Positions 11,297-64,000 of a stretch of 64,000 nt of DNA are shown here, one piece after another. The DNA is from Muricea muricata (Eukaryota; Cnidaria; Anthozoa; Malacalcyonacea; Plexauridae). The position numbers and the translations under genes were made by a program. How positions within the stretch are numbered: position 1 is the stretch's first letter; each line of letters starts with the position of its first letter. Under the pieces are notes generated by a model. The model worked only from the letters and a program-made list of their open reading frames with translations, had not been told where the DNA came from and searched no databases. The stretch spans positions 52,006,846-52,070,845 of the forward strand of contig OY979716.1 of NCBI GenBank assembly GCA_963855995.1, written 5' to 3'.

Positions 11297-13046
11297 AAGT
11301 GGATTCAGGGTCCGGATTTTCTTTGGCAAAAGGAACACGAGTGGCCACAACAACCAATAACATTGAGTGAAATAGCAAATGACAACCCGAAAGTGAAAAA
11401 AGCTGTTAACATCTCTGCAGTGTCCGTTGACGATTTCATGGAGTCAATTAACAAGCTATTTGAGTTCTATTCTGATGTGCATCGTTTAAAAAGAGCACTG
11501 GCGATAATGCTTGGACTTCGTAGATTGTTGATGGACCGAGAATTATCAAAGCAACACATCCAATTCCAGTGCGAAGCCAGACCGAAGAAAAGGGGTGAAC
11601 CAAAGAGATCAGCAAAGTTGAAGGTGATATCACCGCCGATCACAGCACAGGAGTAACAGAAAGCTGAAGAAGCTATCCTTAAATGTCTACAAACCCAAGT
11701 CTATGGAAAAGAGATCAACGTGATCAACGATACTATTGGTACGGAAAGACAAAAACAAAAGGAACGAAAAAAGGGAATTAAAAGGTCAAGTTCTATTTAT
11801 CGATTGAGCCCATTTCTTTCGCAAGGAATTTTGTGCGTGGGAGGTCGGTTGTCCAATGCAGATATTTCAGAATCAGCAAAACATCCATGCATTTTGCCCC
11901 GACGAAGCCACATCATGACGCTCATAATTCGCGACATTCATAAACGATTGGGTCATGCTGGGCGCGGTCACGTTTTGGCAGTCCTGAGAGAGAATTATTG
12001 GGTGATCGGTGCCAGTGCAGCAGTTCGGCATTGTCTTCACAAATGTGTATTTTGTCGGCGTTTTTGAGCAGTGCCAGCTGAACAAAGAATGGCTAATCTC
12101 CCAAAGGAACGAGTTAATCCTGCCCCACCATTTACCTACGTTGGCGTAGATTATTTTGACCCCTTTCATATTAAAGAACGACAGTCAGTATTGAAGCGGT
12201 ATGGCGCCTTGTTCACTTGCTTAGTGATTAGAGCTATTCACATAGAAGTCTCCAATACTTTGAACACAGACTCATTCCTACAGGCATTACGACGTTTTGT
12301 GGCACGACGAGGTCCAGTACGGCAGATCAGATGTGATAACGGTACAAACTTTATTGGAGCAGTCTGAGCTGGAGAGGGCCTTTAGTGAAATGGATCAGTC
12401 TGTCATTCAACAGAAAATGTGTACTATGGGAATAGAATGGATTTTTAACCCACTAGCATTGAGCCACATGGGCGGAGTCTGGGAACGTCAAATTAGAAGT
12501 GTTCGCAAGATCTTAGCGGGAATTCTTCATGAAAACGGGGAGCAACTTGACGACGAATCGTTTTGCACCGTGTTGTGCGAAGTTGAAGCGATAGTCAATT
12601 CTCGACCACTGACATTTCCATGGAGCGATCCTAACGACCTAAATCCTATTTCGCCAAGCAACATACTAACCATGATAACTCAAGTTATTCTTCCAACACC
12701 TTGAGCTTTTGAACGAGCAGATCTTTATCTTCGTAGACGTTGGCGTCGTGTGCAATATTTAGCGAATCTTTTCTGGTCATGATGGAAGAAAGAATATTTG
12801 GTATCTCTTCAAATACGGCAAAAATGGACAAAGTCCAAACGAAATATTACCGTAGGTGACATAGTATTGGTAAAAGATGACTTCTTACCAAGAAATGAGT
12901 GGTTAATGGGTCGTGTCATGGCAACGAAACCAGATTCAAAGGGTTATGTTAGAAGTGTGGTCTTAAAGACTTTGACTGCGAAGCTTCATCGTCCAATTAA
13001 TAAATTGGTTATCTTACTGGAAAACACGAAAGCACAGGAAACATAA
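11297..13046 (+). pseudogene. BEL integrase and C-terminal domain, decayed
   Basis: The integrase zinc-binding region is visible as GHAGRGHVLAVLRENYW...CVFCRRF (about 11955-12063). The catalytic core has YVGVDYF (first Asp), RCDNGTNF (second Asp) and CEVEAIVNSRPL (Glu). The C-terminal DUF5641-like segment (GDIVLVKDDFLP, about 12858) reaches the terminal stop at 13044-13046. Stops at about 11656, 12066, 12365 and 12704 and a 2-bp loss near 12360 break it. Compared base by base with the inverted copy, several of these are changes at CpG sites (CGA to TGA). Integrase would join the cDNA ends to the genome. Confidence 0.85.
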
Positions 13047-13172
13047 TAAAGACAAATATTATAAGGCATGGATAATAGTCTCAGAAAATTGAATAACAGT
13101 CATCGATCTTGACATAATATAAATATTCTTGGTTAAAATTTAAACAGCGTCCCTAGTTCAAAGGGTCGGGTA

Positions 13173-13372
13173 TGTAAAGGCAACTTTACAGGTATTAACT
13201 AATTAGAGTATGAACAATAGGATCATTGTGTGTGTGCATAAATTATCCGGCCTCGAAGGTATATAAACGGCATAGTTTTATCAAAACGGTTGATGGTATA
13301 AAACGGTTAATGTCATATAAACGGATAATGATATATTATATGGTTACGGTACTTCAGTGAAATAGCTTGCTA
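13173..13372 (+). repeat. BEL LTR, 5' part (U3), sense orientation
   Basis: Begins TGTAAAGGCAACTTTACAGG and matches the reverse complement of 13444-13652 and of the solo LTR at 23856-24289. It stops abruptly after GCTTGCTAA, where the full LTR would continue for about 220 bp. Confidence 0.8.
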
Positions 13373-13652
13373 ACTTACTGAACACACATGCACGAACAAT
13401 AATTACAAACTTACAATATGCCCTTCTTTGTTGCCTTGACCGTTTAGCAAGCTATTTCACTGAAGTACTGTAACCGTATAATATATCATAATATCATTAT
13501 CCGTTTATATGACATTAACCGTTTTATACCATCAACCGTTTTGATAAAACTATGCCGTTTATATGCCTTCGAGGTCGGATAATTTATGCACACACATGAT
13601 GATCCTATTGTTCATACTCTAATTAGTTAATACTTGTAAAGTAGCCTTTACA
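13373..13652 (-). repeat. BEL LTR, antisense, partial
   Basis: Reverse complement of the LTR: it starts inside the LTR near the centre of the palindrome and ends with TTTACA at 13652, complementary to the TGTAAA LTR start. Matches the solo LTR at 23856-24289 in the same orientation. Confidence 0.75.
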
Positions 13653-15747
13653 TACCCGACCCTTTGAACTAGGGACGCTGTTTAAATTTTAACCAAGAAT
13701 ATTTATATTATGTCAAGATCGATGACTGTTATTCAATTTTCTGAGACTATTATCCATGCCTTATAATACTTGTCTTTATTATATTTCCTGTGCTTTCGTG
13801 TTTTCCAGTAAGATAACCAATTTATTAATTGAACGATGAAGCTCCGCAGTCGAAGTCTTTAAGACCACACTTCTAACATAACCCTTTGAATCTGGTTTCG
13901 TTGCTATGACACGACCCATTAACCACTCATTTCTTGGTAAAGGAGTCATCTTTTACCAATACTATGTCACCTACGGTAATATTTCGTTTGGACTTTGTCC
14001 ATTTTTGCCGTATTTGAAGAGATACCAAATATTCTTTCTTCCATCGTGACGAGAAAAGATTCGCTAAATATTGCATGCGACGCCAACGTCTACGAAGATA
14101 AAGATCTGCTCGTTCAAAAGCTCCGGGTGTTGGAAGAATAACTTGAGTTATCATGGCTAGTATGTTGCTTGGCGAAATAGGATTTAGGTCGTTAGGATTG
14201 CTCGATGGAAATGTCAGTGGTCGAGAATTGACTATCGCTTCAACTTCGCACAACACGGTGCGAAACGATTCGTCGTCAAGTTGCTCCCCATTTTCATGAA
14301 GAATTCCCGCTAAGATCTTGCGAACTCTTCTAATTTGACGTTCCCAGACTCTGCCCATGTGGCTCGATGCTGGTGGGTTAAAAATCCATTCTATGCCCAT
14401 AGTACACATTTTCTGTTGAATGACAGACTGATCCATTTCACTAAAGGCCCTCTCCAGCTCAGACTTTGCTCCAATAAAGTTTGTACCGTTATCACATCTG
14501 ATCTGCCGTACTGGACCTCGTCGTACCACAAAACGCCGTAACGCCTGTAGGAATGAGTCTGTGTTCAAAGTATTAGAGACTTCTACGTGAATAGCTCTAC
14601 TCACTAAGCAAGTGAACAGGGCGCCATACCGCTTCAATACTGACCGTCGTTCTTTAATATGAAAGGGGCCAAAATAATCTATGCCAACATAGGTAAATGG
14701 TGGGGCAGGATTAACTTGTTCCTTTGGGAGATTAGCCATTCTTTGTTCAGCTGGCACTGCTCGAAAACGCCGACAAAATACACATTTGTGAAGACAATGC
14801 CGAACTGCTGCACTGGCACCGATCACCCAATAATTCTCTCTCAGGACTGCCAAAACGTGATCGCGCCCAGCATGACCCAATCGTTTATGAATGTCGCGAA
14901 TTATGAGTGTCGTGATGTGGCTTCATCGGGGCAAAATGCATGGATGTTTCGCTGGTTCTGAAATATCTGCATTGGACAACCGACCTCCCATGCACAAAAT
15001 TCCTTGCAAAAGAAATGGGCTCAACCGATAGATAGAACTTGACATTTTAATTCCCTTTTTTCGTTCCTTTTGTTTTTGTCTTTCCGTACCAATAGTATCG
15101 TTGATCACGTTGATCTCTTTTCCATAGACTTGAGTTTGTAGACATTTAAGGATAGCTTCTTCAGCTTTCTGTAACTCCTGTGCTGTGATCGGCGGTGATA
15201 TCACCTTCAACTTTGCTGATCTCTTTGGTTCACGCCTTTTCTTCGGTCTGGCTTTGCACTGGAATTGGATGCGTTGCTTTGATAATTCTCGGTCCATCAA
15301 CAATCTACGAAGTCGAAGCATTATCGCTACTGCTCTTTTTAAACGATGCCAATCAGAATAGAACTCAAATAGCTTGTTAATTGACTCCATGGAATCGTCA
15401 ACGGACACTGCAGAGATGTTAACAGCTTTTTTCACTTCCGGGTTGTCATTTGCTATTTCACTCAATGTTATTGGTTGTTGTGGCCACTCGTGTTCCTTTT
15501 GCCAAAGAAAATCTGGACCCGGAATCCACTTTCGTTGTTCCAAGACTGACCTGCCATCCATACCTCTCGATGCATGATCTGCTGGATTTTCATTGGACTG
15601 GACATATCTCCATTGCGTCACTTCGGTTAGGTCTCGAATGACTTGCAAACGATTTGCTACGAAAACGTGAAATCTGGTTTGTTCGTTCTGAATGTATCGC
15701 AGAACTGTAGTTGAATCAGTATGAAAGATTATGATGTCAGGTTTCTC
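13653..15747 (-). pseudogene. BEL integrase/RNase H fragment, inverted copy, better preserved
   Basis: Two long minus frames (14880-13927, 317 codons; 15756-14923, 277 codons) encode the same RNase H end and integrase as the left arm but without its stops. Visible are [44 protein letters not shown] and CEVEAIVNSRPL, so the catalytic D, D and E are all present. A frameshift near 14900 separates the frames, and another near 13940 precedes the C-terminal end. The copy begins inside RNase H at KPDIIIF, where it is joined to the tRNA-like sequence. It lacks gag and RT, so it cannot be autonomous. Confidence 0.85.
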
Positions 15748-15822
15748 TGGCTCCACGGCGGGGAATCGAACCCTGGTCTCCCGCGTTACAGGCGGGGATA
15801 CTGACCACTATACTACCGAGGA
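15748..15822 (-). tRNA. tRNA-Asp-like sequence with GTA anticodon and encoded CCA, probably a retropseudogene
   Basis: On the minus strand a 72-nt cloverleaf follows the animal tRNA-Asp pattern: the D arm, an anticodon arm CCCGC-CTGTAAC-GCGGG, and the T loop GGTTCGATTCC. The usual Asp loop would carry GTC; here one base change gives GTA, which would read as Tyr. There is one mismatch in the acceptor stem and one in the T stem, suggesting decay. The body is followed by G (discriminator) and CCA, normally added after transcription in eukaryotes, and the next base is the BEL sequence. Confidence 0.65.
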
Positions 15823-35395: not shown

Positions 35396-37568
35396 TGAAT
35401 AAACGATCAGTTGGTCAGATGTTTCGATTCTTCATATTTGATGCAACATGAAGTACAGTAAATTTTCCCGCCAAGAATTGCTAATCAATATGGCTACCAA
35501 CGAAGGACTGGCAAGATTGCTATCTTCTGCCATAGAACGAGCAGTGAGCGATGTTCTGGATTCACGAGGCGTAAGAGGCATAAAAAAATAATACATATCC
35601 CGCTGTGGTGTTTATCCTATAATCGTGAATTTTAGATTTGCCTTACCTTATTAAAAACATGCAAGAGTAATGAGTTGGTGTTTTCGCACCCTAAAACTTT
35701 TCATTATATATATATATATGTGTATATATTCATAATTTCATATAGAACGGTCAGAATGTGCAGGCTACCAACGAAGCTCCTTATAGTAATTCTTCACTGC
35801 AAAACGTGCTGAGGGTAAGCTATCTCTTTATAGTCCCTTGCCTGTGGTGAAAATGCCAAATGTACTTTTAAATACAATCACACAGCTAGAAATGCCAAAA
35901 CATAAGTATAAAAGCAAGTTGTGGATTTCACCAGCTCACAGCAATTCTGTGAAACTCAAACTTGTTGCGACTTGACATTTGCTAAAAGTTGTTGAAACAA
36001 CTTACAATCAAGCTTGCATGTGAATAAAAAGTCCTGACAATTATCATCGAGCAAGTCTGTTGACAACTTGCAGCAAAGCATAATTTTTTCCGCACCTTCC
36101 AACTTAATTGCAGAATGTCACCAATACGTCTGACCAAACATCAGATTCTGTGCAGAGCATTTCAAGGGTAAGTGCTCCCTGGATATTTTCCAGCTGCATG
36201 GGCAATTGTTTAGCAAATTTATGTAATTTAAAAGCTATCTGGTTATAAACAATTTTATGATCATCTTTCTACTTAGGAGAATGTCCAAAATCAAACATCA
36301 TTGTCAATTAACAGGACAAGGGTAAGTAAAACATTTTCTGTGCTATGAAAAATTTTGATGAATTATGTGTTAGAACCTATAATTTATAAGGTACTCATTA
36401 ATTTCAGACATTTATATTTAATACCAGCTTGTGCAAGGATCTAAAATGCAGATTTTTAAAAATCTTAGTGATGCTAGTCATTCATATTAACATGGTACAG
36501 GTATTGCCCTGAATTAAAGGGCATATATGAAGTGAAGGTCCTTTTCTGTTTCCTAACTTTTTTGGGATTTTATAGCCCTCTATTTAGGGAAATGAAGGTT
36601 CTTTTATTTAGGCTATATATAAAATATAACCAGCTTAAAGTGACTAAGAAGAACATAAAAGAATATTCATTTGAAACCAATAAAAATGTTTGCTTCATAT
36701 GTCCATTAAGGTGTTAACATCAACCTGTATTGAGAGGTATTGATTGAGTGATTAGTCTCTTTGTTATAGCCAAGGCACCAGCCAACGCTGCCATCAGCAT
36801 TTGGTCAGTGTGTGCAAGTAACACCCGCCCCAAAGAGAAATTGATCAAGATCATGCCAGCTGAAGCCAGGGAAAGCATACACCAAAGATATTGTGTGTAT
36901 TCCACCTAAGATGACCAAGAACTTGGATACTTATCCTATTCCAAAAGGAGAAAGTGGAGCCAATTTGGCAAAAATGGGCCTTATTGGGAAAATATACCTA
37001 GAGTCTACCTGGAGTGCAGAAGAAGTAGAAAATTAAATCAGTAGTGTTTTCAGCCCTGTATTTAATCTTCCTGGCAATTTGCGTTTTGAATACACGTATC
37101 TTAGGTAAATGTTGTTGATCAGCTTATAGTCAATTATCTTTAGTTGAAACAATGAATAGATAGTACATAATTATCTGTAATATTAGAACAACATGTTCTG
37201 TTCAGAACTCTGTGAAGTTAATTGCTAATTTTCTGAAAAATATTTGCATGTTTTGCAGCACTATGCCAGGAACTAAGAAGCTTAGCGTACCACGTATATC
37301 ATCCTCCTTCAGATGGAATGCTCCAGAAGTTCTCTCGCTATGTTCACAGGGTGCAATTTACATAGCTTCAAAAGAAAATCCTGCACAGGAATATAATTGT
37401 CTAGAAAATAATGTAATTTTTCACACTTTGTTATCTTAATTGAATCACTTGCAATGTTTATTATATATTGGCCCTATTGTAAGGATAGGTTAGGCAAAGG
37501 AAGTAATTATTAATTGGTTTACGATTTCATGATGATATTATCAGAGTTCTGCCTGAAACCAGTTACAA

Positions 37569-37803
37569 TGTGCAGAACTGCCTCCCAATAGTATTCTACA
37601 CACACACATGTTTTATTTTAAACTTTATTTAATACAAATCACAATCTCTCGTATTTAACAATTTCCCTTCTCAAATATTTTTCCACACCAACAACAACAA
37701 CAATACCGGTATATACCGGCTTGACCCGAGTGGTCCCCGTTCGGATTCGCGCGTCTCGCGCGACAACAAACCTATCTTACGTTAATGTTAGTGGTTTCCG
37801 ACA
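37569..37803 (-). repeat. BEL 3' LTR
   Basis: 235 bp, TG...CA, near-identical to 43307-43541. On the minus strand it is preceded by a polypurine tract (GGGGGGAGGG, 37804-37813), the expected plus-strand primer. Confidence 0.9.
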
Positions 37804-37809
37804 CCCTCC

Positions 37810-37945
37810 CCCCATATAGCTTCTTGGAGCTATATGTCATAAGGAAACCTTAAAATCTCAATGTCAATTACGTAACTTCTAACTAACCGTTCGTTTTATG
37901 CAAACTGTAATGTCTTAAAGGATATAGAGTATTGTTCCGAGTTTG
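37810..37945 (-). other. BEL 3' untranslated region
   Basis: Between the end of the integrase frame and the 3' LTR; carries the polypurine tract next to the LTR. Nothing else seen. Confidence 0.5.
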
Positions 37946-39423
37946 CTACTCATTCTCACTCGTCATCGTTGTTTGCTCTTGAATACGAATTCTTGCGACG
38001 GCTGCTGCCTCTCGCGCTGGTCGAAATACTGCAGCGGCAGGATTGAGTTTGTCACTGTTGCTTGATGAACTAATATCACAAGACAGTTCGAGAGGATACA
38101 GATGCTGAACTGCTCGCTCTAAATGACCAGTCGGTGTCTTTATCTTCGCCCCTCGAACAACCCCGTCTCTTCCCTTATAAAGTTCCTCCACTACTCCCAA
38201 CGGCCATTTATTTCTGTTGCGTTCTTCAGCGTAGATTATGACCACATCCCCAACAGCTAGGGAGAAAGACTTCGCATGATATTTTAAATTGTGTCGCTCT
38301 CTCAATGCTCGTACATACTCTTTTGTCCATCTGTTCCACACGTGCTCCTTACATTTCTTTAAATACTTTGCGCGCTTGCGTAAGTCTGGGTCGGTTTCAT
38401 GGTAATGCTCTAGTTCAGGAAGTTGGGTGGTCCCGACGAACTGCAAGCTATTAGGTGTCAACGTGGGCATTTGGATATCATCTTCTTGATACCCCAGTGG
38501 TCTGTTGTTAAGAGTTATCTCAACGTCTAGAAGCACGGCTTCAAGTTCTTTCTTCATAAGGTATCCATTTCCAATAGATTTGTACAATGCGGATTTTACT
38601 AAACCGACCATTCGCTCGAATTGACCCCCCACCAGGGGGCCCGACTAAGATTAAATTGCCATTTTATCTTTTCGTTAGCAAGGAAATTATGGAATTTCTC
38701 ATCTCGCTGTGCTTTCTTTAACCAGTTAGATGCCGCCACAAAGGTTTTCGCATTATCAGAGTAGATCTTCTCTGGTCTGCCCTTTCTCGCAATCAGACGC
38801 TTGAGGGTGGGAATAAACTCATCAGTTTCCATGCTGGTGGTCAACTCTAAGTAGAGGGCTCTGGTAAGACTACACGCGTAGAGGGTTATGTACGCTTTCC
38901 CTTCGGTTTTCTTGGTGATACGATACTTTATTGGGCCTGCAAAATCCACCCCTACCACTTGGAATAAACGGTGGCCTTGTGTTCTATCTATGGGCAAGTT
39001 CCCCGGGGGTGGTTTACTAACATGTCGCACGTGAAATCTTCGACACCCATGACATCGCTTTATGATCTTCCTCACCAGTTTCCTCAATCTAGGAACCCAC
39101 ATGGTTTCTCTAATTTTCGCCATGGTGAGTCCGACTCCCCCGTGTAACGTGCGTTGATGTGCATTCTCTACAAGCTTGATCGTATAAGGATGGTTGTCGG
39201 GTAGGAATATGGGATACAGGCCTTGTAACCGACCTTCGCACACTTGGATGCCATTTACGTCCATCTTCACACCCAGGCGTTGCTTGTCGTCGTTCAACTG
39301 GTCGTTTTCAATTGATTGTGCTCGCTTTATCCAGAATTCACGTTGCTTGTTTATCTCATCGGTGATCAACGGTCCGGAGCGTCTCTCTGTCTCAGTTTTC
39401 CTGGCTCGACAGTTATGCAGAAA
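37946..39423 (-). pseudogene. BEL integrase and C-terminal domain, one frameshift
   Basis: After the TGA at 39424 the same frame continues through the zinc-binding region (HQRTLHGGVGLTMAKIRETM...CHGCRRFH). The catalytic core has VVGVDFAGPI (first Asp), KIYSDNAKTFVAA (second Asp) and LLDVEITLNNRPLGY (Glu). Between them, in a run of six G near 38627-38632, the frame shifts by one base: APWWG ends the first frame and GGQFERMVGLVKSAL starts the next. The C-terminal DUF5641-like part (LAVGDVVIIYAEERNRNKWP; HLERAVQHLYPLEL) ends at 37946. Integrase would insert the cDNA. Because the lesion is in a homopolymer, a sequencing error is possible. Confidence 0.8.
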
Positions 39424-42066
39424 TCAGAAAATCCATGCGTGGATTCTCACAGCTTTGTTGAGCGAAAACTTAGCCAAGATCTGGTCTGATTCGTCAGGTG
39501 AGTTTACCGCTACGTTGAAAACTGCCTTTGTTGCCTTGGCTTCGGCTTCACTCTCTGGGGTTGCCGTTGTCACCATATCTCTGGGCCACTCGTTCGGGTC
39601 AGCCAACCACGACGGTCCTTCCCACCACAATTGATTTCCGGACACAAGACCTCCACGACTACCCAAATCTGCAGGATTGTCTCGACTAGGAACGTGGCGC
39701 CACGTAATATTTGGACATGCCGGAATCTTGTTTACGCGATTCATAACAAATTGTTTATATTCTCCCCCTCCTTTCAGCCACTGCAACGCCACGGTGCTGT
39801 CTAACCAACCATACGATCCTGCAACAGGCATTCCACCTAGCGCTTCTCGAACATTAACCAACAGATTAGTCGCCATGTGGGCAGACACCAGTTCTAATCG
39901 TGGTATGCTTAGATCTTGTTTGGCTAATCTAGCTCTAGCAGCTACTAGACCAATGTTGGTATCTTCGTTCTGCTTTACAACTGCATAAAGTGCTGCGCAC
40001 ACGCCTTTCTTACTCGCGTCTCCGAATGAGTGGAGTTCGATTTCTTCCACTGCTTCACGCTGAGTTGTCAGAGCTCTGGGTATCGCGACACGTTTAGGCA
40101 ATCCTTTCACCCACTGACTGTATTCTATGGCTTGTGATTTTGGTAATGGTGCATCCCATGCTGTTTTTGCTTCGCAAGTCTCTCGATAGATTATCTTCCC
40201 CCTTAGCGTTACTGGCGCGACAAGTCCCAGGGGATCGTAAATACTTGCCAGGTTATGCAACAACTCTCTTTTGGTCACAGGCATTTTCATCTCTGGGACC
40301 ACGACACTAAACTCGTCGGCTTCTTTGTTCCAGGGGAGGCCTAGCAGACTGGACTCTTGATCAGTTGACGGACTAAATTGCTGTTTGGCAAAGGTATTCT
40401 CTGTCTCTACACTGGGTTGTTCACTTTCCAACTCGGAGACATTGGAATGCCATTTGTGGAGTGTAAATTTAGCGTCCTCGAAGATCTCAATAGCTCCGAC
40501 TTTCAATTCTTTTGCCTCGGCCACAGTTGGTTTACCACTCAATAGGTCGTCGACGTAAAGGCTTTTACGTATCTCAGCGACTAATTCTGGTTCACGAGCT
40601 TCCCAGGATACAAGGTGTCGTTCTACAACCCCACCCAGAAGAAAGGGAGAACACACTAGACCAAAGAGAGCTCTAGTGAATCTTAAAGTTTCGACTTCCG
40701 ACTGTTCGCTCGACTTCCAATGGAATCTAAGTGAGTCTCTTTCTTCCTTTCTGATTCGCACTTGCAGGAATGCCTGCTTGATGTCTCCCGTTAGGGCCAC
40801 CGGATGAAACCGCATCCGTACAAGTACATTCCACAATCGATTTTGTAGCGGAGGGCCCACATAGAGGCAGTCATTCAGGCTGGGGGCCTGCACATTCTCA
40901 CGAGCTGAAGCATCATAAACGATGCGCAGTTTGGTCGACTCTGCTTCTGTCCGCATCACGGGTTTATGAGGGATATAGAATGTCTTTCCGGTTGGTGGTT
41001 GTGTCGCAGCTTCAACAATTCCCTCAGATTTCTGCTGTTTGATCACCTCTGCGTACTTCTCGGTTATGCCCAATCGTTGTAGCTTGTTGTCAAGTTGTGT
41101 AAGTCGACGTAAACTGCCAGATTTATTACTTGGCAAAGGTGGGTGACTGCTCTTCCAGAACAGCCCGGTTTCGAACCACCCTTCAGGATGTCGTACCAGC
41201 TGCTCACAAAACTCTGCATGGACTGCATATTGGTCATGCTCAGGCCTGTCCTCCAGGCCTAAAACGTCTAATCTGCACAAGTCCTCATAATCGGCTTGGC
41301 TTGTCTGCATCAAGAGCATTTTGGAATGATCAAATTCTTTCCCAGACGACATTATTGTCCACCCGAACCTAGTCTTCTCCGCCACTGGTTCACCAGGTAA
41401 ACCTACTCGGGGAGATTCTGCTGTTTTGATGGTGGCAAAAGCACTGGCACCTAGGATCAGATGAATTGGTAAGAATGGTTTAGAATCTTTGTCTTCCATG
41501 GTCACTCCCTTGAGATGGTTGTACGAATCGATCAGTTTCTGGTAGTGTGGATTTGCAATTGTTAGTAAATTTCCCCGTTCGACTCTGGTCACATCCACAT
41601 CGATCTTGTAACTGCCGTCTGTAGCCCCCACTCTAATATTAGAAATCGATACTTCACGAGTCGTTGAACCCAACATCATCTCTATTTGCCGAACTTCTTT
41701 AGACTGTGGTCGCTTCGGAAGTTTGTCCAACAACGCTGCGGAAGCATAGGAGCTTCCTGCCCCAGTGTCAAGTAATGCTCGACATATCACCCCCTCCACA
41801 TTTACGTCCACAACTGGATACACCACCTGACCACTGCTTCCCCCGGTCGCCACTTTAAGACTCTCCTTCACTGTGCATATTGAAGTGTGATGCCTTTGAT
41901 TACACTTCTGACAACCAGTTGTACTTCTACACTCGTTGGCTTGATGTTTGGGACCCGTACAGTTAAAACATAGTTTCTTTTTCGCTAGAATCCCCTTTCT
42001 CTCATCCACACTCACCACCCTTGTACACTCACGTGAACTATGGTTAACGTCATCACAGTATGCACA
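39370..42066 (-). CDS. BEL Pol: zinc knuckle, protease, RT, RNase H
   Basis: A single long frame (first ATG at 42018, stop 39424-39426). Order: zinc knuckles (CAYCDDVNHSSREC just before the ATG, CFNCTGPKHQANEC), aspartic protease (LLDTGAGSSYASA), then a linker with FGWTIMSSG. RT motif A is TGDIKQAFLQVRI and the catalytic box is LYVDDLLSG. The connection is NLASIYDPLGLVAPVTL. RNase H has SFGDASKKGVCAALY, IPRLELVSAHMATNLL, WLDSTVALQWL and NPADLGSRGG. All expected acidic residues are visible, so the enzymes look intact. It is flanked by one in-frame TGA on each side (42067-42069 and 39424-39426), and integrase continues in the same frame beyond the second. Confidence 0.85.
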
Positions 42067-42069
42067 TGA

Positions 42070-43148
42070 TCATCTTCGAGAACTCGTATTAAATAGACTA
42101 TCTCGTTTACTCTTGCGCTTCTCTCTATCTTTATCTATGACATCCTCTTTCTCACTAAGATTTATGTCCCTCCATTGTTTTAATGCTTGAATAAGGTGCG
42201 TTAGATCCCACTCTTGCCAGCTCGCCTGTCCTTTAACTAAATCACTCTTTATCCCTGAGAGCTTATCAAGGACACTTCGCGTCATCCCATTTACTCGCTC
42301 AAGTTTACCCAACGTTTCAAGGGATTGAACATTAAAAAGCAAAGTTTTATAGAAACTGTTTATTTCAACAGGGTCAGTGCCTTTTACCACAGGCAAATCA
42401 AGAATGCTTTGGACATATGCATTTATAACTTCACTTGTCTTCCCGTATTCCCCCTTTAAGATGTTTTTTGCCCGTTCGTACCCCTCTGTTGTTAGGGGCA
42501 ACCCGTCAATATCTGCTCTTACCTTGGGTTTCACAAACTCCTTCAGATAAGCAAATTTCGTAACAGCCGAAAGCTCGGCGCTATCGATTTCAGCAACAAA
42601 TTTGTTCCAAAAGGGTAACCAATTTGCACATTTCCCGTCGAATTGGGTAATGGACAGCTTTGGTAATTTCGTTGACAATACCTTTTTCGTCTGGTTCTGT
42701 TCGCCCGCCGTTAATGCCTTTTGAAACTGTAGCTGCTGTTCGTACAGCTCACGTTCTTGACTCATTTTCAGCTGTGTTTCTCGTGCTCAAATGCCATTTC
42801 TTGTTTGAGTGTTTCGGACAACTTTGCCGCCTGATTTCCCTTCGTTATTTTCTCCTTTTCTAGTCGTATCTCAATTAATTTCTTGTCGGACGCCTTTAAA
42901 GTACTTTCGATGCCTTCGACCCATTCTTGTACCTGCAGCTCCGTTTCGTTATTACCGAATTTCAGTTCTATAATCTCATCTTTCAACGCGTGACTCGCCT
43001 CGATTTTCCCTTTGATTGACGTTTCGTGTCTGTTTATCGCTTCAAAGTTTCCCGTTTCGATTACTTCGTTGCTTTTACCTAGAGTAAATTTGAGTGTTCG
43101 TAATTTCCAGTCAAGTTCCTTTACTTTTGCTTCCATAGCTCTTTTCAC
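42070..43148 (-). pseudogene. BEL Gag, one frameshift
   Basis: The N-terminal frame (43148-42768) is a Lys/Glu-rich coiled coil (MKRAMEAKVKELDWKLRTLK). Near 42775 the frame must shift by one base to continue as QLKMSQERELYEQQLQFQKA. The second frame (42765-42070) holds the DUF1759-like Gag core (KLSITQFDGKCANWLPFWNK; RAKNILKGEYGKTSEVINAY; ILDLPVVKGTDPVEINSF). A TGA at 42067-42069 ends it just before the zinc-knuckle region, which continues in the same frame. Gag would form the cytoplasmic particle that holds element RNA. Only two lesions separate this copy from an intact Gag, consistent with the near-identical LTRs. Confidence 0.8.
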
Positions 43149-43306
43149 TTGGTTATTTTAGCTTTATCCGATAAATCTCTCCGTCCCAATTTGTCGCTAT
43201 ACGGTATTTGATATAAATTCCACACGTGTCGCCCGATATTTGTTCCCGATATTTCTTGCTTTTGCTCGATCAACAATCTCCCAAATGTCGTTCGGAGGTG
43301 CCACTA

Positions 43307-43541
43307 TGTGCAGAACTGCCTCCCAATAGTATTCTACACACTCACATGTTTTATTTTAAACTTTATTTAATACAAATCACAATCTCTCGTATTTAACAAT
43401 TTCCCTTCTCAAATATTTTTCCACACCAACAACAACAACAATACCGGTATATACCGGCTTGACCCGAGTGGTCTCCGTTCGGATTCGCGCGTCTCGCGCG
43501 ACAACAAACCTATCTTACGTTAATGTTAGTGGTTTCCGACA
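43307..43541 (-). repeat. BEL 5' LTR
   Basis: 235 bp, TG...CA. Next to its inner edge the minus strand reads TGGCACCTCCGAACGAC (about 43304-43288), a primer-binding-site candidate beginning with the TGG that pairs with a tRNA CCA end. Confidence 0.9.
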
Positions 43542-50054: not shown

Positions 50055-50804
50055 TTATGTTTCCAAAAGTTTTTGCCCAACAAACTGGACTGTCTGTCGA
50101 TATAATTCCATTGGGTCTGCAGATACATCAATTGTGTTTTGTAACTCAATCATAGTTTCATCGTCCAAAGCTATTTCTGTATCCTCACATTCAACATGAG
50201 GAAGATCCTGTTCCAACAACGAGTCTACATCCAATCCTTGGTAGGGCATTTCATGAGCTGAGTCCAATTGAGCTAAATGCTGATTACCCAAGAAAATTTG
50301 TACTGGGGTTTTATTCTCTTCAGTAGATATTTTGTGATTGTTATGAGCAGCTACGAACTCCCTGTGTGATTTATTTAGGATAGGCAGAAAGACATGATGT
50401 AAGCAAAACAAATCAATGTCATTTGACGGGTCTAAGACACTCTTGCATTCCAGCTGGTAAAATATGCTCTTAAACTGTTCTATGACTTGTTCGTTTACAA
50501 TTCGGTTGTGTCTTTCAATCCGTTGGTTGTGCACAGAGCTTCCTGCTATAACAGGCTTGGTATCCTCTCCATGTACACTAACCATATGACGCCACACTTC
50601 CACGTTTTCTCCACTGTAATCTGTTCGTACACGCATAGGACAACCATATTTTTGAACTGCTGCTTTAAACAGGTCTCCAACCGTGATTGCTTTATTGTTG
50701 GTGGAGAATTGTGCGAAAACTACCATTCTGCTAGACCCGTCAATTCCATGATGAAGAACAATTAACTGCTGCCCGCAATATCTGGTCAGGAAACGAAAAT
50801 TCAT
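50055..50804 (-). pseudogene. integrase-core gene, second copy, C-terminal part
   Basis: A single 249-codon frame without internal stops. It opens inside the catalytic core (LHHGIDGSSRMVVFAQFSTN) and carries MRVRTDYSGENVEVWRHM (second Asp region), SSVHNQRIERHNRIVNEQVI (Glu region), VFLPILNKSHREFVAAHNNH and an acidic tail. Same family as 2237-3161 but clearly diverged. The first catalytic Asp motif (HIDGNHKL-like) is missing at the start, where the sequence reads RYCGQQLIV, so the protein is truncated or the 5' part lies in another exon. The N-terminal HTH-like part of a relative occurs 5.6 kb upstream on the same strand at 56455-56637. Confidence 0.65.
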
Positions 50805-56637: not shown

Positions 56638-56782
56638 TTCCTGTTCTGACAGTAAGGAATACTTTTCATGTGATATGCCATTTTCTCATAAATTTATACA
56701 AAATAGGCCTACAACCAGTGACATTAAAAGGTGGGACACCCAATTTATAACTATAAATTTATGTAAACTTGCAAAATTCTTA

Positions 56783-56925
56783 TTAACCCCCCCCCCCCTC
56801 CCCCTTTTCAATGTTGGATTCTTTTGACGACAGAACAACCAGAGACATGCTAGGACAGAAGGTCAGCTCGTGTAAGATCGCAGTTTTGGCCTCACAACAT
56901 TGAAAAGGGGGCAAGGGGGGGTTAA
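56783..56925. repeat. C/G-tract foldback, copy A
   Basis: TTAACCCCCCC...CCTTTTCAATGTTG at 56783-56816 is inverted as CAACATTGAAAAGG...GGGGGGGTTAA at 56895-56925. Both ends read TTAA. Confidence 0.8.
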
Positions 56926-57147
56926 GTTCCAATTTCGGGTCAGTCGGTCCGCCAATTTTGTCACTGATTGTCTGAGCCATTTGGAGTGCTGTTGGTCATC
57001 TTCATTTATGTATAACTTTAAAACTAAGCAAGGTAACTGCACCAAATTTTCAGCATAACGAAAATGTTGAATGAGCTATGATTAGGAATCATCATAATCA
57101 ACTAGTTAATTATGTGACGTAATAATAAATCGTATTAATGACTGATC

Positions 57148-58242
57148 ATGAAGCAAAATAGGTATTTTACGGCTGAGCAGCGGGCTTTAGCCCTCCTAAT
57201 GAGACGGGAAATGAAATACTCATATCGGAAGATTGCCTTGAAAACCAATATGTCAAAGACAAGTGTCCAGAGGATTGTTAAGCAAGCTGATTGTGGACGG
57301 AAGAGCGTGCTAAACTCGAAATCTAATCGTGGTCGACGAAAATCATTATCAGAAAGAGACCAGCGAAAGCTTAGAAGAGCAATCATACAACTCCGAGAAA
57401 AGACTCCAAATTTTACAGTGATGGAGGTAGTGCAAAGGAGTGGAATTTCCGCAACCTTAGTGTCTTACAGAACGTTTGTTCGTCATGTGAAAAAGCTGGG
57501 ATACGATTTCTTTCAAAGTCGCAAGAAAGGGGTGCTTACAAGGAAAGATTTCCAAATACGCCGTACGTTCGCACGATCTATGATGAAGAAACCACCTGAT
57601 TATTGGACAAAAGGCGTTGCATTTTACTTGGATGGCGTTTCCTTCATCTACAAATCCAACCCAATGAGTGACGCACTGAAACCAAAAACTCGTGTTTGGC
57701 GAAAAAGGGGGGAAGGCCTACTGATAACTACAAAAGGAAGCAAAGAGCTCGCCGGTGGCAGAAGACTGCACTTGCTGGTGGCTATAGCGTACAGGAAAGG
57801 GGTTATTTGTGCCGAAACATATGAAAAAATGGATGGGCCATATTTTGCTCGCTTCATTTGCCGTCAATTTCCAACACTCTTTGACATAACAGGAAAACAA
57901 AGCAATAATACTCCAAAATTATTTGTAATGGATAATGATCCCTCACAAACGTCAGCTGTTGCAAAGAAAGCCTTGCATTCTATTGGTGCGACTATGCAAG
58001 TAATTCCAGCCAGATCTCCAGACATAAATCCGATAGAAAATTTGTTCAACGTCGCGCGCAAAAACATTGAAGCAGAAATATTACAGAAAAATATAATACA
58101 TCAATCATGGGATGAATTCGTTGAAAGAGTTAAATTTCATTTATGGTCAGTTTCAAAAGAATATATAAATAAGACTGTGGGAAGTATGCCAAACAGAATT
58201 AAAGAAATTGTTAAACGCAAGGGTATGCGCACAAAATACTAA
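57148..58242 (+). CDS. Tc1/mariner (DD34E) transposase, copy A
   Basis: An uninterrupted 364-codon frame. The N-terminal half holds the paired HTH region: HTH 1 at about residues 8-48 (YSYRKIALKTNMSKTSVQRI), a basic RGRRKS linker at 61-66, HTH 2 at about 75-115. The catalytic domain has FYLDGVSF (Asp162), LFVMDNDPSQTS (Asp262) and SPDINPIENLF (Glu297). That gives 34 residues between the last two, the DD34E signature of Tc1-like enzymes, and the length is normal for the family. Such enzymes cut both strands at the inverted ends and insert at TA. The start is the first ATG of the frame. It converges on the Rep-like gene; the two stops lie about 500 bp apart around the iteron hairpin. It is one of the few intact long genes in the window. 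Confidence 0.9.
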   Translation: MKQNRYFTAEQRALALLMRREMKYSYRKIALKTNMSKTSVQRIVKQADCGRKSVLNSKSNRGRRKSLSERDQRKLRRAIIQLREKTPNFTVMEVVQRSGISATLVSYRTFVRHVKKLGYDFFQSRKKGVLTRKDFQIRRTFARSMMKKPPDYWTKGVAFYLDGVSFIYKSNPMSDALKPKTRVWRKRGEGLLITTKGSKELAGGRRLHLLVAIAYRKGVICAETYEKMDGPYFARFICRQFPTLFDITGKQSNNTPKLFVMDNDPSQTSAVAKKALHSIGATMQVIPARSPDINPIENLFNVARKNIEAEILQKNIIHQSWDEFVERVKFHLWSVSKEYINKTVGSMPNRIKEIVKRKGMRTKY

Positions 58243-58741
58243 CTTTAATTAAATAATAGAGAACCTTACAATGTCTATGAATATTTTGTATTTGATTGTA
58301 AACCCCCTTATATCACAAGCATTAAATTGTTTATCTAACAAACTGATTGAATTATGGCAGTGTCATGTTACATAAAATCGCCGAAAATATCCTTCAAAGG
58401 CAGTTGCTAACATACTCTTGAGTGCCATGAAAGTGCTGTGATGATTTGATAACATATTTACCCGCATAACCATTCAAATTTTTGAATTTTCGTACGATTT
58501 TAAGCGAGTAACCACGAGTCACCACGAGTAACCATGCAATGATAAATATGTTAATATGCTACAATAATTTATAAACACAAACATGGTTACTCGTGGTTAC
58601 TCGTGCTATCTACTTAATTACACCAATTTCGGCACGGTTACTCGTTAACAAACATATACTAAACACTTATAAGAAGAAGTTATGTTTTTTCAACTGCGAT
58701 GTCTTTCACGATAATGCCATATTTAACGAATACATTTCTCA
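58243..58741. promoter_or_regulatory. putative replication origin: iteron hairpin, copy A
   Basis: The core is at 58505-58644. CGAGTAACC occurs at 58505, 58525 and, as the variant CGAGTCACC, at 58515. The inverse GGTTACTCG occurs at 58585, 58595 and 58636. The three left copies and the two adjacent right copies are spaced exactly 10 bp apart, about one helical turn. Arms 58513-58536 and 58582-58605 pair over 24 bp with one mismatch around a 45-nt AT-rich loop. Iterons plus hairpin next to a Rep gene are the hallmark of rolling-circle origins. The loop has TTAATATGCTAC, only loosely like the TAATATTAC nick site of CRESS elements. Confidence 0.6.
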
Positions 58742-60177
58742 TTAGTCAAGCCAGTCGTAGCTCTCGAGGATGAGCCGAGCGAAGCACGCTGGGCAAGGAT
58801 CTATGTCCTGTTGCTCTTCCTGCGAAATCTGCCTGTTGAAATTAAATATTTTCCATCGAACGGCCATCATTTCTGTCCCCCTCTCGTCAACAACTCCCCC
58901 TTTAACATAAACCAACTGATGCTTGCTGGTGCTGAAAATTGGCATGTCTTTGTCAAACACTAGATCATGGGCAAAGTGCAATTTCCGTGCAAGCAAGTGG
59001 ACTAACTGACCCTCCAGCATTAACAGCAAATCATGCCAGGCGATTATCTGAGGTGACCAACGAAAGTCATTCAAGAAAAGCACTTCGGCTTTTTCAGCTC
59101 CTACCCGCGCGAAACTTGTTGATGCCGGGTTAGTAAAAGTTCTAAATATCTTGTTAAGAGGATTTAGCAAGACTGTTTTGCCGCAATTCGCTGGGCTCGT
59201 CAACATAATGTTTCTAAATTTGCCACGACCTTTTATTAATAGTTGTTTTACACAGTTAGCAAAATTGTCAACAGCAATATTGTTATTTGCAAGTAATTGC
59301 AATGTACAGCTATGCCATTTGGCTTTTGCATTGCAAGTACATTGTCCTTCATGTGCCTCGTTTAGAATTTCAATGCGGGTTTTACATTGCCTATCCTGCG
59401 TTTTCTGTGCCGATTCCATCTCCCAAGCTGTTGCTATAACTTCGCTGACCACCTTTTTACCACGGTTTACAATAAACTCAGCCAAATCAGTCTTCCCTTC
59501 CTCTCTTTGCCGGTTTGAGAAAGCTAAAAGTTCGGTTCGATTTTTTAAGCCTTTCCTTAGGACGATCTCAGCAACTTCATACGCACTTAATCGCTTTCGC
59601 TTCTTTGTCTTTGTTGGTTTTTTAAGCTCGCTTTCATGTTGCACTTGCCCATATTTATCTGGGCAATCTATATCTACGCCCTGTTCGATAATTTCATGCG
59701 AACGCCGTCTCACAGCTGTGCCCTTGTAGTTGGCTTCACTTGCTATCATCGTTGATGGTTCTTCGCTGTCGTTAAGTCAGGGTGTCCTTCGCTTTCGAGT
59801 GAATGTTTTTCTGCTTTCGTAACATATTTCCATGCCGTATAATAGTTAGCATGCACGCTTGAGAAATGAATGGAAATACCATATTCGTCAGCAAGATATT
59901 TCTTTCATTGATTTTTGCTAAGTTTCAAACACATGTGGTAATGCACTCCAGATTTCTTGTGGTATTCTTGTGAACAACACCATTGTAAAATTTTGGCGGA
60001 CCCCCCGCGAAACGATTTATTTACCACTTGAGCAAACGCTGCTCTTGTAGGGAATTTTGACGTGTTGGCTTGGCTATATGTTACCAAATAAACTTTCCGA
60101 ATTTGCCTTTTGTCTAACTCACATTTATCAGAATCAGAACAGGAGGAACTACTTTCATAGCCTTCAATAAGATCCAT
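58742..60177 (-). pseudogene. HUH endonuclease-SF3 helicase Rep-like gene, copy A, two lesions
   Basis: The first frame (60177-59905) starts MDLIEGYESSSS and has a motif I-like strand VYLVTYSQAN (residues 29-38) and the HUH motif GVHYHMCL (His79, His81). A TGA at 59905-59907 interrupts it. The same frame continues with KKYLADEYGI and YYTAWKYVTKAE, the Tyr motif that would attack DNA. A one-base loss near 59772-59778 shifts the frame to the 335-codon frame 59749-58742. That frame has Walker A SPANCGKT (185-192), Walker B LFLNDFRW (224-231), motif C PIFSTSKHQ (270-278) and a Cys end (PCPACF). HUH nickase plus SF3 helicase is the architecture of CRESS-type and parvovirus-like replication proteins. 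As written, the nickase and helicase cannot be made as one protein. Confidence 0.75.
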
Positions 60178-60702
60178 GTTTCGAAATTCAATTAAATTCT
60201 TTAAAAGTCTTAACCGGCAAAATGCGTATAGACAGCGCGTCCTTCAAAAAGACATATGTCGAAAATGATCGTGTAACGCAATATGCCAGAAACGCAGTCA
60301 TCACGTTAATAGACTTAAATTATTTGCGACTTGCGAGTGTAACACGGCATATGATGGCTTATATGCCTGCCATGAATAAAGAATGAAGCATTGACCTTTA
60401 AAAATACATTAAATGTGTGTAAAAATTTTATAACTAAGTGTATACTGAGAATAATTGTGAGATTGTTAGAAGCGTGCGGTATTCACAAAAATCACATGCA
60501 TCACTTTTATAGACAAGTGCGTAAAATGCATTCTAAAATACTCCCGTGAAATATTGTTTATTTTAAATTCTTAAGAGTTCACAACAAAATATTACGGAGA
60601 AGTGTTTAAAATGTCTTTAGTAAAGAACCTACAGCATTACATAATCAAAAAGCTAACTTTAGTACAAATTTTACAAACATGAACACCCTCGAATTTGCTC
60701 AG
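60178..60702. other. upstream region of Rep-like gene, copy A
   Basis: About 525 bp before the Rep start, AT-rich, probably holding its promoter. No defined motif found. Confidence 0.4.
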
Positions 60703-60774
60703 ACAACCAGTGACATTAAAAGGTGGGACACCCAATTTATAACTATAAATTTATGTAAACTTGCAAAATTCTTA

Positions 60775-60912
60775 TTAACCCCCCCCCCCCCCTCCCAATG
60801 TTGGATTCTTTTGACAACAGAACAACCAGAGACATGCTAAAACAGAAGGTCAGCTCGCGTAAGATCACAGTTTTGGCCTCACAACATTGAAAAGGGGGCA
60901 AGGGGGGGTTAA
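60775..60912. repeat. C/G-tract foldback, copy B
   Basis: Same structure as in copy A, but the left arm lacks the CTTTTC segment and the interior differs at about five positions. Confidence 0.75.
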
Positions 60913-61134
60913 GTTCCAATTTCGGGTCAGTCGGTCCGCCAATTTTGTCACTGATTGTCTGAGCCATTTGGAGTGCTGTTGGTCATCTTCATTTATGTAT
61001 AACTTTAAAACTAAGCAAGGTAACTGCACCAAATTTTCAGCATAACGAAAATGTTGAATGAGCTATGATTAGGAATCATCATAATCAACTAGTTAATTAT
61101 GTGACGTAATAATAAATCGTATTAATGACTGATC

Positions 61135-62229
61135 ATGAAGCAAAATAGGTATTTTACGGCTGAGCAGCGGGCTTTAGCCCTCCTAATGAGACGGGAAATG
61201 AAATACTCATATCGGAAGATTGCCTTGAAAACCAATATGTCAAAGACAAGTGTCCAGAGGATTGTTAAGCAAGCTGATTGTGGACGGAAGAGCGTGCTAA
61301 ACTCGAAATCTAATCGTGGTCGACGAAAATCATTATCAGAAAGAGACCAGCGAAAGCTTAGAAGAGCAATCATACAACTCCGAGAAAAGACTCCAAATTT
61401 TACAGTGATGGAGGTAGTGCAAAGGAGTGGAATTTCCGCAACCTTAGTGTCTTACAGAACGTTTGTTCGTCATGTGAAAAAGCTGGGATACGATTTCTTT
61501 CAAAGTCGCAAGAAAGGGGTGCTTACAAGGAAAGATTTCCAAATACGCCGTACGTTCGCACGATCTATGATGAAGAAACCACCTGATTATTGGACAAAAG
61601 GCGTTGCATTTTACTTGGATGGCGTTTCCTTCATCTACAAATCCAACCCAATGAGTGACGCACTGAAACCAAAAACTCGTGTTTGGCGAAAAAGGGGGGA
61701 AGGCCTACTGATAACTACAAAAGGAAGCAAAGAGCTCGCCGGTGGCAGAAGACTGCACTTGCTGGTGGCTATAGCGTACAGGAAAGGGGTTATTTGTGCC
61801 GAAACATATGAAAAAATGGATGGGCCATATTTTGCTCGCTTCATTTGCCGTCAATTTCCAACACTCTTTGACATAACAGGAAAACAAAGCAATAATACTC
61901 CAAAATTATTTGTAATGGATAATGATCCCTCACAAACGTCAGCTGTTGCAAAGAAAGCCTTGCATTCTATTGGTGCGACTATGCAAGTAATTCCAGCCAG
62001 ATCTCCAGACATAAATCCGATAGAAAATTTGTTCAACGTCGCGCGCAAAAACATTGAAGCAGAAATATTACAGAAAAATATAATACATCAATCATGGGAT
62101 GAATTCGTTGAAAGAGTTAAATTTCATTTATGGTCAGTTTCAAAAGAATATATAAATAAGACTGTGGGAAGTATGCCAAACAGAATTAAAGAAATTGTTA
62201 AACGCAAGGGTATGCGCACAAAATACTAA
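61135..62229 (+). CDS. Tc1/mariner (DD34E) transposase, copy B
   Basis: The translation is identical to copy A over all 364 residues, with the same Asp162, Asp262 and Glu297. Surrounding non-coding sequence is also identical by eye, so the duplication (or its homogenisation) is very recent, or the repeat reflects an assembly of a circular or concatemeric molecule. As in copy A it faces the Rep-like gene across the iteron hairpin. No promoter motif is obvious in the 220 bp upstream, which includes the C/G foldback. Confidence 0.9.
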   Translation: MKQNRYFTAEQRALALLMRREMKYSYRKIALKTNMSKTSVQRIVKQADCGRKSVLNSKSNRGRRKSLSERDQRKLRRAIIQLREKTPNFTVMEVVQRSGISATLVSYRTFVRHVKKLGYDFFQSRKKGVLTRKDFQIRRTFARSMMKKPPDYWTKGVAFYLDGVSFIYKSNPMSDALKPKTRVWRKRGEGLLITTKGSKELAGGRRLHLLVAIAYRKGVICAETYEKMDGPYFARFICRQFPTLFDITGKQSNNTPKLFVMDNDPSQTSAVAKKALHSIGATMQVIPARSPDINPIENLFNVARKNIEAEILQKNIIHQSWDEFVERVKFHLWSVSKEYINKTVGSMPNRIKEIVKRKGMRTKY

Positions 62230-62728
62230 CTTTAATTAAATAATAGAGAACCTTACAATGTCTATGAATATTTTGTATTTGATTGTAAACCCCCTTATAT
62301 CACAAGCATTAAATTGTTTATCTAACAAACTGATTGAATTATGGCAGTGTCATGTTACATAAAATCGCCGAAAATATCCTTCAAAGGCAGTTGCTAACAT
62401 ACTCTTGAGTGCCATGAAAGTGCTGTGATGATTTGATAACATATTTACCCGCATAACCATTCAAATTTTTGAATTTTCGTACGATTTTAAGCGAGTAACC
62501 ACGAGTCACCACGAGTAACCATGCAATGATAAATATGTTAATATGCTACAATAATTTATAAACACAAACATGGTTACTCGTGGTTACTCGTGCTATCTAC
62601 TTAATTACACCAATTTCGGCACGGTTACTCGTTAACAAACATATACTAAACACTTATAAGAAGAAGTTATGTTTTTTCAACTGCGATGTCTTTCACGATA
62701 ATGCCATATTTAACGAATACATTTCTCA
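62230..62728. promoter_or_regulatory. putative replication origin: iteron hairpin, copy B
   Basis: Core at 62492-62631, same six 9-bp iterons, 24-bp arms and 45-nt loop as copy A at the 3,987-bp offset. Confidence 0.6.
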
Positions 62729-64000
62729 TTAGTCAAGCCAGTCGTAGCTCTCGAGGATGAGCCGAGCGAAGCACGCTGGGCAAGGATCTATGTCCTGTTG
62801 CTCTTCCTGCGAAATCTGCCTGTTGAAATTAAATATTTTCCATCGAACGGCCATCATTTCTGTCCCCCTCTCGTCAACAACTCCCCCTTTAACATAAACC
62901 AACTGATGCTTGCTGGTGCTGAAAATTGGCATGTCTTTGTCAAACACTAGATCATGGGCAAAGTGCAATTTCCGTGCAAGCAAGTGGACTAACTGACCCT
63001 CCAGCATTAACAGCAAATCATGCCAGGCGATTATCTGAGGTGACCAACGAAAGTCATTCAAGAAAAGCACTTCGGCTTTTTCAGCTCCTACCCGCGCGAA
63101 ACTTGTTGATGCCGGGTTAGTAAAAGTTCTAAATATCTTGTTAAGAGGATTTAGCAAGACTGTTTTGCCGCAATTCGCTGGGCTCGTCAACATAATGTTT
63201 CTAAATTTGCCACGACCTTTTATTAATAGTTGTTTTACACAGTTAGCAAAATTGTCAACAGCAATATTGTTATTTGCAAGTAATTGCAATGTACAGCTAT
63301 GCCATTTGGCTTTTGCATTGCAAGTACATTGTCCTTCATGTGCCTCGTTTAGAATTTCAATGCGGGTTTTACATTGCCTATCCTGCGTTTTCTGTGCCGA
63401 TTCCATCTCCCAAGCTGTTGCTATAACTTCGCTGACCACCTTTTTACCACGGTTTACAATAAACTCAGCCAAATCAGTCTTCCCTTCCTCTCTTTGCCGG
63501 TTTGAGAAAGCTAAAAGTTCGGTTCGATTTTTTAAGCCTTTCCTTAGGACGATCTCAGCAACTTCATACGCACTTAATCGCTTTCGCTTCTTTGTCTTTG
63601 TTGGTTTTTTAAGCTCGCTTTCATGTTGCACTTGCCCATATTTATCTGGGCAATCTATATCTACGCCCTGTTCGATAATTTCATGCGAACGCCGTCTCAC
63701 AGCTGTGCCCTTGTAGTTGGCTTCACTTGCTATCATCGTTGATGGTTCTTCGCTGTCGTTAAGTCAGGGTGTCCTTCGCTTTCGAGTGAATGTTTTTCTG
63801 CTTTCGTAACATATTTCCATGCCGTATAATAGTTAGCATGCACGCTTGAGAAATGAATGGAAATACCATATTCGTCAGCAAGATATTTCTTTCATTGATT
63901 TTTGCTAAGTTTCAAACACATGTGGTAATGCACTCCAGATTTCTTGTGGTATTCTTGTGAACAACACCATTGTAAAATTTTGGCGGACCCCCCGCGAAAC
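62729..64000 (-). pseudogene. HUH-SF3 Rep-like gene, copy B, cut by window edge
   Basis: The 335-codon helicase frame (63736-62729) is identical to copy A. The frameshift (about 63760) and the TGA (63892-63894) are also the same. The HUH motif lies at about 63920-63940. The start codon would fall near 64164, beyond the window. Shared lesions mean the gene was already broken, or is read in a non-standard way, before the units were duplicated. Confidence 0.75.

Follow-up and report, generated by a model that had tools for sequence, protein, structure and literature searches.

Does a gene pair found at one locus of the anthozoan Muricea muricata belong to a single mobile element, and if so, what could a replication protein contribute beside a transposase? 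The locus lies in a stretch of 64,000 nucleotides (assembly GCA_963855995.1, contig OY979716.1, positions 52,006,846 to 52,070,845, forward strand), hereafter the window. Here two head-to-tail units (starts 56711 and 60703, spacing 3992 bp) each pair a DD34E transposase (+) with a convergent gene (-) for a Rep-like protein, composed of an HUH endonuclease and a superfamily 3 (SF3) helicase; an inverted iteron hairpin separates the two stops. An earlier note on this DNA had described the paired units correctly and proposed a composite element that replicates as a circle through Rep and integrates through the transposase. We conclude that the pair belongs to a composite-like transposon family of the Tc1/IS630 type, built as two direct terminal repeats (TRs) around an internal region (INT), in which, as the best reading, Rep would copy a circle with one TR and the transposase would insert monomers or multimers at CTAG.

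The pairing recurs throughout the window's own assembly (453 Mb, 74 contigs), in which searches scored the best 120 of 581 and 112 of 1532 candidates. Thirty distinct loci were inspected as DNA: 17 from 20 fetched regions (both ends in the case of three arrays; L028 is the window's array), C34 with L032-L034, L035-L042, and L050. At L035-L038 the genome searches had already shown the Rep and at L040-L042 the transposase; fetching was confined there to the side where a partner was missing. Both genes are present, at least partly, at 28 of the 30 loci, in lineages down to about 40-50% protein identity, and this recurrence led us to reject chance neighbours. The earlier note had named independent contexts of the two genes as the finding that would speak against a composite element; the search did not bear this out, the two genes occurring jointly. 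At L050 the Rep is reduced to about its last 36 residues, and beside the transposase at C8:6675086 (in L051) no Rep was found within 2.6 kb where it was expected. By the search listing alone both genes occur at 26 of 88 loci, with Rep only at 39 and transposase only at 23, a figure that is low because only part of the candidates was scored. When eight of the Rep-only loci were inspected, all eight had at least part of a transposase (at L038, 50 residues in the fetched stretch), while five inspected transposase-only loci comprised three with a Rep, one with a C-terminal remnant and one without. Listed pairs are convergent with 444-1100 bp between the matched parts, convergence being required by the pairing rule; the genes converge also in the group of 17 directly inspected loci.

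Outside this assembly, contig sizes of 3386, 3915, 4090 and 147565 bases are each exactly common to a Rep match and a transposase match. At shifted offsets (1-60 bases) such coincidences averaged 0.6 with a maximum of 3 for 3.3-4.8 kb, and none occurred over 10 kb. Counted over all sizes there were five coincident pairs, P0142 having the size 3386 in common with P0006 as well as with P0020; shifted offsets gave 1.5 on average and 5 at most. Of these pairs, only the 147565-base one is strong evidence of linkage on its own. The transposase of that pair shares 95% identity with a transposase of the window's assembly, and the contig may stem from the same or a near species. Two contigs of 2691 bases (P0190/P0256) are too small for both proteins, and their agreement was taken as chance.

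What, then, are the limits of the element? The earlier note described a unit of about 3.99 kb, and we considered the unit boundary as an element end with a long terminal inverted repeat, an idea dropped for the TR model once copies outside the window had been seen. A single copy of the main family runs through unit 1-3992 and continues with a second pass over about unit 1-261. Of 16 single-copy loci that were fetched whole, 15, from six lineages, showed two direct TRs on self-comparison, the distance between their starts being 3.8-4.3 kb; no TR pair was found in L017, and in L013 the left TR is partly deleted internally. TRs measure from 187 bp (L050) to 277 bp and have mutually inverted ends, starting with CAAYC and ending with GRTTG, with CTA and TAG outside. 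In the window the plan is thus TR-INT-TR-INT-TR, and the repeat unit is not the element, since the direct repeats bound the latter. The features are as follows.

56712..64000, + strand: insertion as far as the window shows it, a dimer TR0-INT1-TR1-INT2-(TR2); left flank ...GGCCTA, right flank TAGATAC..., target CTAG
56711..56971, + strand: terminal direct repeat TR0 of 261 bp (the A of TA taken as its first base), with mutually inverted ends ACAACCAGTGACA...TGTCACTGATTGT
about 56784-56925: palindrome inside TR0, TTAACCC...GGGTTAA
56972..60702, + strand: internal region INT1, 3731 bp
57148..58242, + strand: intact DD34E transposase of Tc1/IS630 type, 364 aa, with D162, D262, E297 and Pfam domains
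58505..58649, no strand assigned: iteron hairpin, inverted CGAGTAACC arrays flanking a loop of about 45 nt, proposed replication origin
58742..59749, - strand: Rep gene, SF3 helicase part, open frame of 335 aa
59761..60177, - strand: Rep gene, HUH endonuclease part, in a different frame and broken, with an in-frame TGA at 59907-59905
60703..60958, + strand: middle repeat TR1, 256 bp, TR2-like on the left and TR0-like on the right, a crossover hybrid
60959..64000, + strand: internal region INT2, running on to 64689 past the window end
61135..62229, + strand: second transposase, identical to the first
62492..62636, no strand assigned: second iteron hairpin
62729..64000, - strand: second Rep gene, in the same two frames, cut by the window end

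The right end of the dimer lies at window coordinate 64953, beyond the window end at 64000, and INT1 and INT2 show 1 difference over 3731 positions. Apart from transposase and Rep, the sole open reading frame (ORF) of at least 100 aa in the unit is antisense to Rep; no capsid gene was seen, introns not being considered. The palindrome of TR0 was tried as a piggyBac-like miniature inverted-repeat transposable element in a spacer, comparable to the coral CMITEs (PMC2872659). It was rejected because it sits within the TR of the main family; the recurrence of part of it in the TRs of the ~75% lineage (L015, L016) also opposes that reading.

Insertion through the DDE enzyme, as the earlier note had supposed, has good support from the target sites, an empty site and what excision leaves behind. 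A TA duplication flanks 15 of 18 insertions with both ends seen, in 14 of the 15 within CTAG and at L016 within CTAC; CTAG makes up only 2.45% of the TA sites of the window. The same CTAG preference is known from bacterial IS630. One copy in a minisatellite reveals the empty site, its joined flanks matching a neighbouring monomer at 99% over 109 bp and gapless; for a second copy, in an older satellite, the matches of the joined flanks are 75-86% and gapped. Within arrays some units are short by about 250-270 bp. Four such junctions read in the main lineage gave CTCAGA-CAG-TCTGAG twice, CTCAGA-CA-TCTGAG once, and one with a further small deletion, and a junction in the array on C2, another lineage, gave TTCAGA-CAG-TCTGAA. 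A CA or CAG footprint, a remnant of the CAAYC end and of the type expected from Tc1-type excision, is therefore present at four of the five TR-less junctions read, which argues that the transposase evidently cuts at the TR ends and that the TR is lost alone. Judged by its ends, the element is mobile through its own transposase.

The catalytic residues D162, D262 and E297 of the transposase form a DD34E triad, with 34 residues between the second D and E, and are unchanged in an alignment of 22 rows. Pfam finds HTH_23 and DDE_3 (8.5e-13) over the cut-off and HTH_Tnp_Tc3_2 under it, a transposase profile matches Sleeping Beauty SB100X at 8.1e-19, and named relatives come from Dendronephthya and Paramuricea. 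Together with the TA duplication and the inverted cut ends with a 2-3 nt footprint, these are the marks of Tc1/mariner (IS630-Tc1), and by its sequence the window transposase is of the IS630-Tc1 type.

For the opposite-strand gene the motifs read in the earlier note stand in the case of HUH, Tyr (YxxK) and Walker A, while Walker B is a Walker B-like stretch. The HUH fold resembles that of the Reps of tomato yellow leaf curl virus (TYLCV) and wheat dwarf virus (WDV), and in a PDB comparison the helicase part best matches parvovirus and papillomavirus structures. By sequence, the Rep profile found only weak matches in PDB, to mL101 and SAR1; positions 61-115 of profile A1, in the HUH domain, match mL101 (PDB 7aoi) at E 0.003. 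Rep matches number 505, 120 of them listed, with Actinostola, Acropora and Porites among the named sources, and the SF3 helicase part is kept across 114 aligned relatives. Taken together, the named relatives of the two proteins point to a host that is probably an octocoral. Searches of viral contigs, GTDB genome contigs, phages and plasmids found nothing. In unit 1 the gene is broken by the TGA and by a frame shift between about 59782 and 59761; unit 2 is identical over the portion inside the window, and L028 has the same two-frame split. Among young copies many Reps are open (504-aa frame), although the frame is 336 aa long in 12 units of C34. Between the C3 and L015 lineages, nonsynonymous divergence (dN) is 0.17 for Rep and 0.16 for the transposase, far below the proportion of synonymous differences (pS) of 0.77 and 0.63, and therefore both genes are under purifying selection. 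The two proteins also diverge together: over 11 pairs, of which four were matched solely by equal contig size, r is 0.69 and the permutation p is 0.00035.

Between the genes lies the candidate origin. The inverted iteron hairpin that the earlier note had seen is confirmed (DNA fold z -5.89), and most lineages have their own iteron at this place, for example CGAGTAACC, ACAAGTAACC, ACGGTTAACC, ACACGTTAC and ACATGTTAC, with a loosely common GTTAC/GTAAC core. Lineage-specific iterons at a fixed position are what a Rep origin would show. The TRs were compared in 17 insertions, leaving out L013, L017, L050 and the C1 array (right side ending in 200 N). TR pairs are 94-100% identical within an insertion (first against last TR for arrays), whereas the identity of TRs from different lineages is 0.50-0.66, close to what unrelated sequences give when aligned globally in this way. 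In L010 a 21-bp duplication absent from relatives is in both TRs. These matched pairs and the duplication therefore point to a stage with a one-TR template, or to gene conversion between TRs.

We propose that Rep would bind the iterons, nick in the hairpin and set off rolling-circle replication of a circle with one TR (TR-INT). The transposase would cut the outer ends of two TRs, one or more units apart, and paste TR-(INT-TR)n into CTAG. A one-TR stage would account for the matching TRs within insertions despite the identity of only about 50-66% between lineages, and arrays would then expand and contract through TR recombination. A Rep-driven rolling-circle stage is the best reading that we can infer from open HUH-SF3 Reps, lineage-specific iterons and TR pairs matched within lineages; these lend indirect support to the circular replication proposed in the earlier note, and a circle itself was not seen.

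Longer arrays than the window dimer follow the general plan (TR-INT)n-TR. On C3 we counted 17 units (period 4023) and on C9 five (period 4028), each array enclosed as a whole by one CTA...TAG pair. C1 holds at least seven units (period 4049; Rep 54% identical to the helicase part in the window), with one end running into 200 N, and C2 at least six (period 3956; transposase 48% identical). C34 has 30 listed units. About 20 kb separate the C3 array (C3:60577335-60643814), which is perhaps subtelomeric, from the end of its contig of 60.66 Mb. In the young family INTs show 5-12 differences over about 3766 positions between loci; the first and last units differ at 0 positions on C9 and at 3 on C3. 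The L014 and window copies are older, with 79-92 INT differences. The TRs of the window differ more than its INTs, and where TR0 and TR2 differ, TR1 equals TR2 at 89-170 and TR0 at 205-244, the exceptions being the length of a C-tract and two private changes. Such a hybrid is the expected trace of an unequal crossover in which one chromatid took part with its right TR and the other with its left TR, that is, of a dimer made in place without need for Rep.

Several points weigh against the rolling-circle proposal. The window dimer arose by unequal crossover, and arrays need no Rep; the earlier note's explanation of the tandem through Rep circles is not supported for this dimer, and an inserted concatemer is unsupported here, although such an origin is possible for the longer arrays. 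At L050 (653-5837) a dimer flanked by CTA and TAG consists of two units from which one and the same deletion has removed almost the whole of Rep. In the assembly sequence, which is what the analysis covered, neither a circle nor an intermediate of replication was seen. The position of motif C, which the earlier note had counted as present, reads TPIFxTxK and has no Asn; SF3 motif C usually has one. Between the close copies L015 and L016 the ratio of nonsynonymous to synonymous change is 0.76 for the transposase (0.2 for Rep). Rep and transposase trees conflict for L020 and for the C2 array (C2:49860762-49881354), apparent module swaps which suggest an exchange between lineages. The hairpin stem beats all 100 block shuffles in only 7 of 12 regions, in L042 narrowly; it is weak and not above shuffles in L022 and L040, and no stem of seed length was found in L020, L021 and L032 (the latter two being one family), though L020 has repeated iteron-like words. 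L018, L019 and L020, three of the 18 insertions, have no TA duplication. Main-family TRs are 1.00 identical within copies and between them, and the L019/L020 TRs are 0.98 identical between copies and 0.977 and 0.996 within, leaving no within-copy excess. The single-template reading would thus draw on the lineage contrast and one 21-bp duplication, which gene conversion explains equally.

How else could pair and arrays be explained? Rep may be a nicking enzyme that provokes recombination at the hairpin or TR, with TR repair converting or multiplying units and spread occurring by ordinary cut-and-paste. We hold this to be unlikely on balance, yet a Rep that acts in TR recombination, as has been suggested of the endonuclease of KolobokP, would be the main rival to rolling-circle replication. 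The hybrid middle TR and the L050 dimer speak for it, as does KolobokP itself, which shares the plan with an opposite-strand nuclease and for which induced unequal crossover has been proposed (PMC9587614). A helicase part conserved so widely and origin-like iterons, on the other hand, exceed the needs of a nicking enzyme. Conservation of Rep along with the iteron site in several lineages similarly makes it improbable that arrays come purely from host recombination between TRs and that Rep serves something else, such as copy-number control or the blocking of a DNA virus, even though the window needs no Rep and array variants stand in contiguous runs by score or frame length.

Two further explanations concern the reality of the pair and of the arrays. 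That a single Tc1 landed next to the relic of an endogenous viral Rep, with tandem duplication of the two thereafter, could appeal to the broken window Rep and to the two inspected loci that have a transposase without a full Rep. The genome search refutes it, with both genes at nearly all inspected loci, many open Reps, common ends and the TA duplication around the whole unit, and we give it practically no credence. Assembly artefacts would be suggested by C34, a contig of exactly 125,000 bases that is nearly all array and flips orientation at about 92.9 kb (L029-L031). They are a very improbable general cause: the arrays of the window, C3 and C9 are embedded, with flanks and one CTA/TAG pair, in contigs of 14-124 Mb, and TR-less junctions and unit variants occur within arrays.

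Our search of open-licence PMC papers, outside which Repbase and subscription papers fall, turned up no account of a Tc1 element that carries a Rep. Tc1/mariner elements such as Sleeping Beauty share the DD34E core, the helix-turn-helix domains, the TA duplication and the CA(G)-type footprint; unlike the present element, they encode as a rule a single protein and lack long direct terminal repeats. Reps of CRESS-DNA viruses (geminivirus-like) have the same HUH-SF3 order and an HUH fold like that of TYLCV and WDV Rep, and these viruses also carry iterons beside a hairpin. Here, by contrast, no capsid gene was seen in the unit, the helicase part is nearest, in the PDB comparison, to parvovirus and papillomavirus structures, and the partner is a DDE transposase. 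In bacterial IS26-type translocatable units the transposase lies inside the repeat, whereas here it lies in INT. The pseudo-composite plan and the one-repeat circle as a possible intermediate are common to both, and these units are named in PMC9587614.

The closest known system is that of the KolobokP composite-like DNA transposons, whose direct-repeat plan, according to its authors, resembles that of no other DNA transposon (Kojima and Bao 2022, PMC9587614). They have long terminal direct repeats with short inverted ends and an INT between them, a nuclease encoded on the strand opposite to the DDE transposase, multimers with common repeats, and lost repeats that give INT-INT, all as found here. 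The enzymes differ, a Kolobok transposase and a His-Me homing endonuclease there against a Tc1/IS630 DD34E transposase and an HUH-SF3 Rep here, as do repeat lengths of about 450 or 660 bp against 187-277 bp (PMC9587614). The same paper reports no strong target preference for KolobokP, against CTAG here, and describes solo repeats as common; we saw none among the best 40 of 81 candidates, which were filled by array copies. The TRs look partly like long terminal repeats (LTRs).

Elsewhere in the window we observed a Bel/Pao-type LTR retrotransposon (37565-43541) with 239-bp direct repeats that are 98.7% identical and, inside them, ORFs for Peptidase_A17, reverse transcriptase and integrase. A palindrome of 4.7 kb at 11080-15748 (arms of about 2.3 kb, 95.6%), which contains remnants of integrase/DUF5641, is a fold-back duplication or an assembly artefact, and an ORF at 50055-50804 strongly matches the rva_4 integrase core (2.7e-51) and is probably part of another element.

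Tc1/mariner transposons are regarded as plain cut-and-paste elements, and here a viral-type replication initiator and an origin-like site have been kept beside the transposase over deep divergence. If Rep works, the family would mark a route from a cut-and-paste to a replicative element, a merger of a DDE transposon with a circular single-stranded DNA replicon without a capsid. Whether the two are coupled engines, Rep rolling-circle and Tc1-type DDE, forming a class of replicative DNA transposons whose LTR-like repeats evolved independently of KolobokP, is a tentative idea that we put at slightly under even. Together with KolobokP, the family suggests that the plan of direct repeats, transposase and opposite-strand nuclease evolved twice, and its arrays, footprints and hybrid repeats provide a large natural data set for the origin of tandem arrays of transposons.

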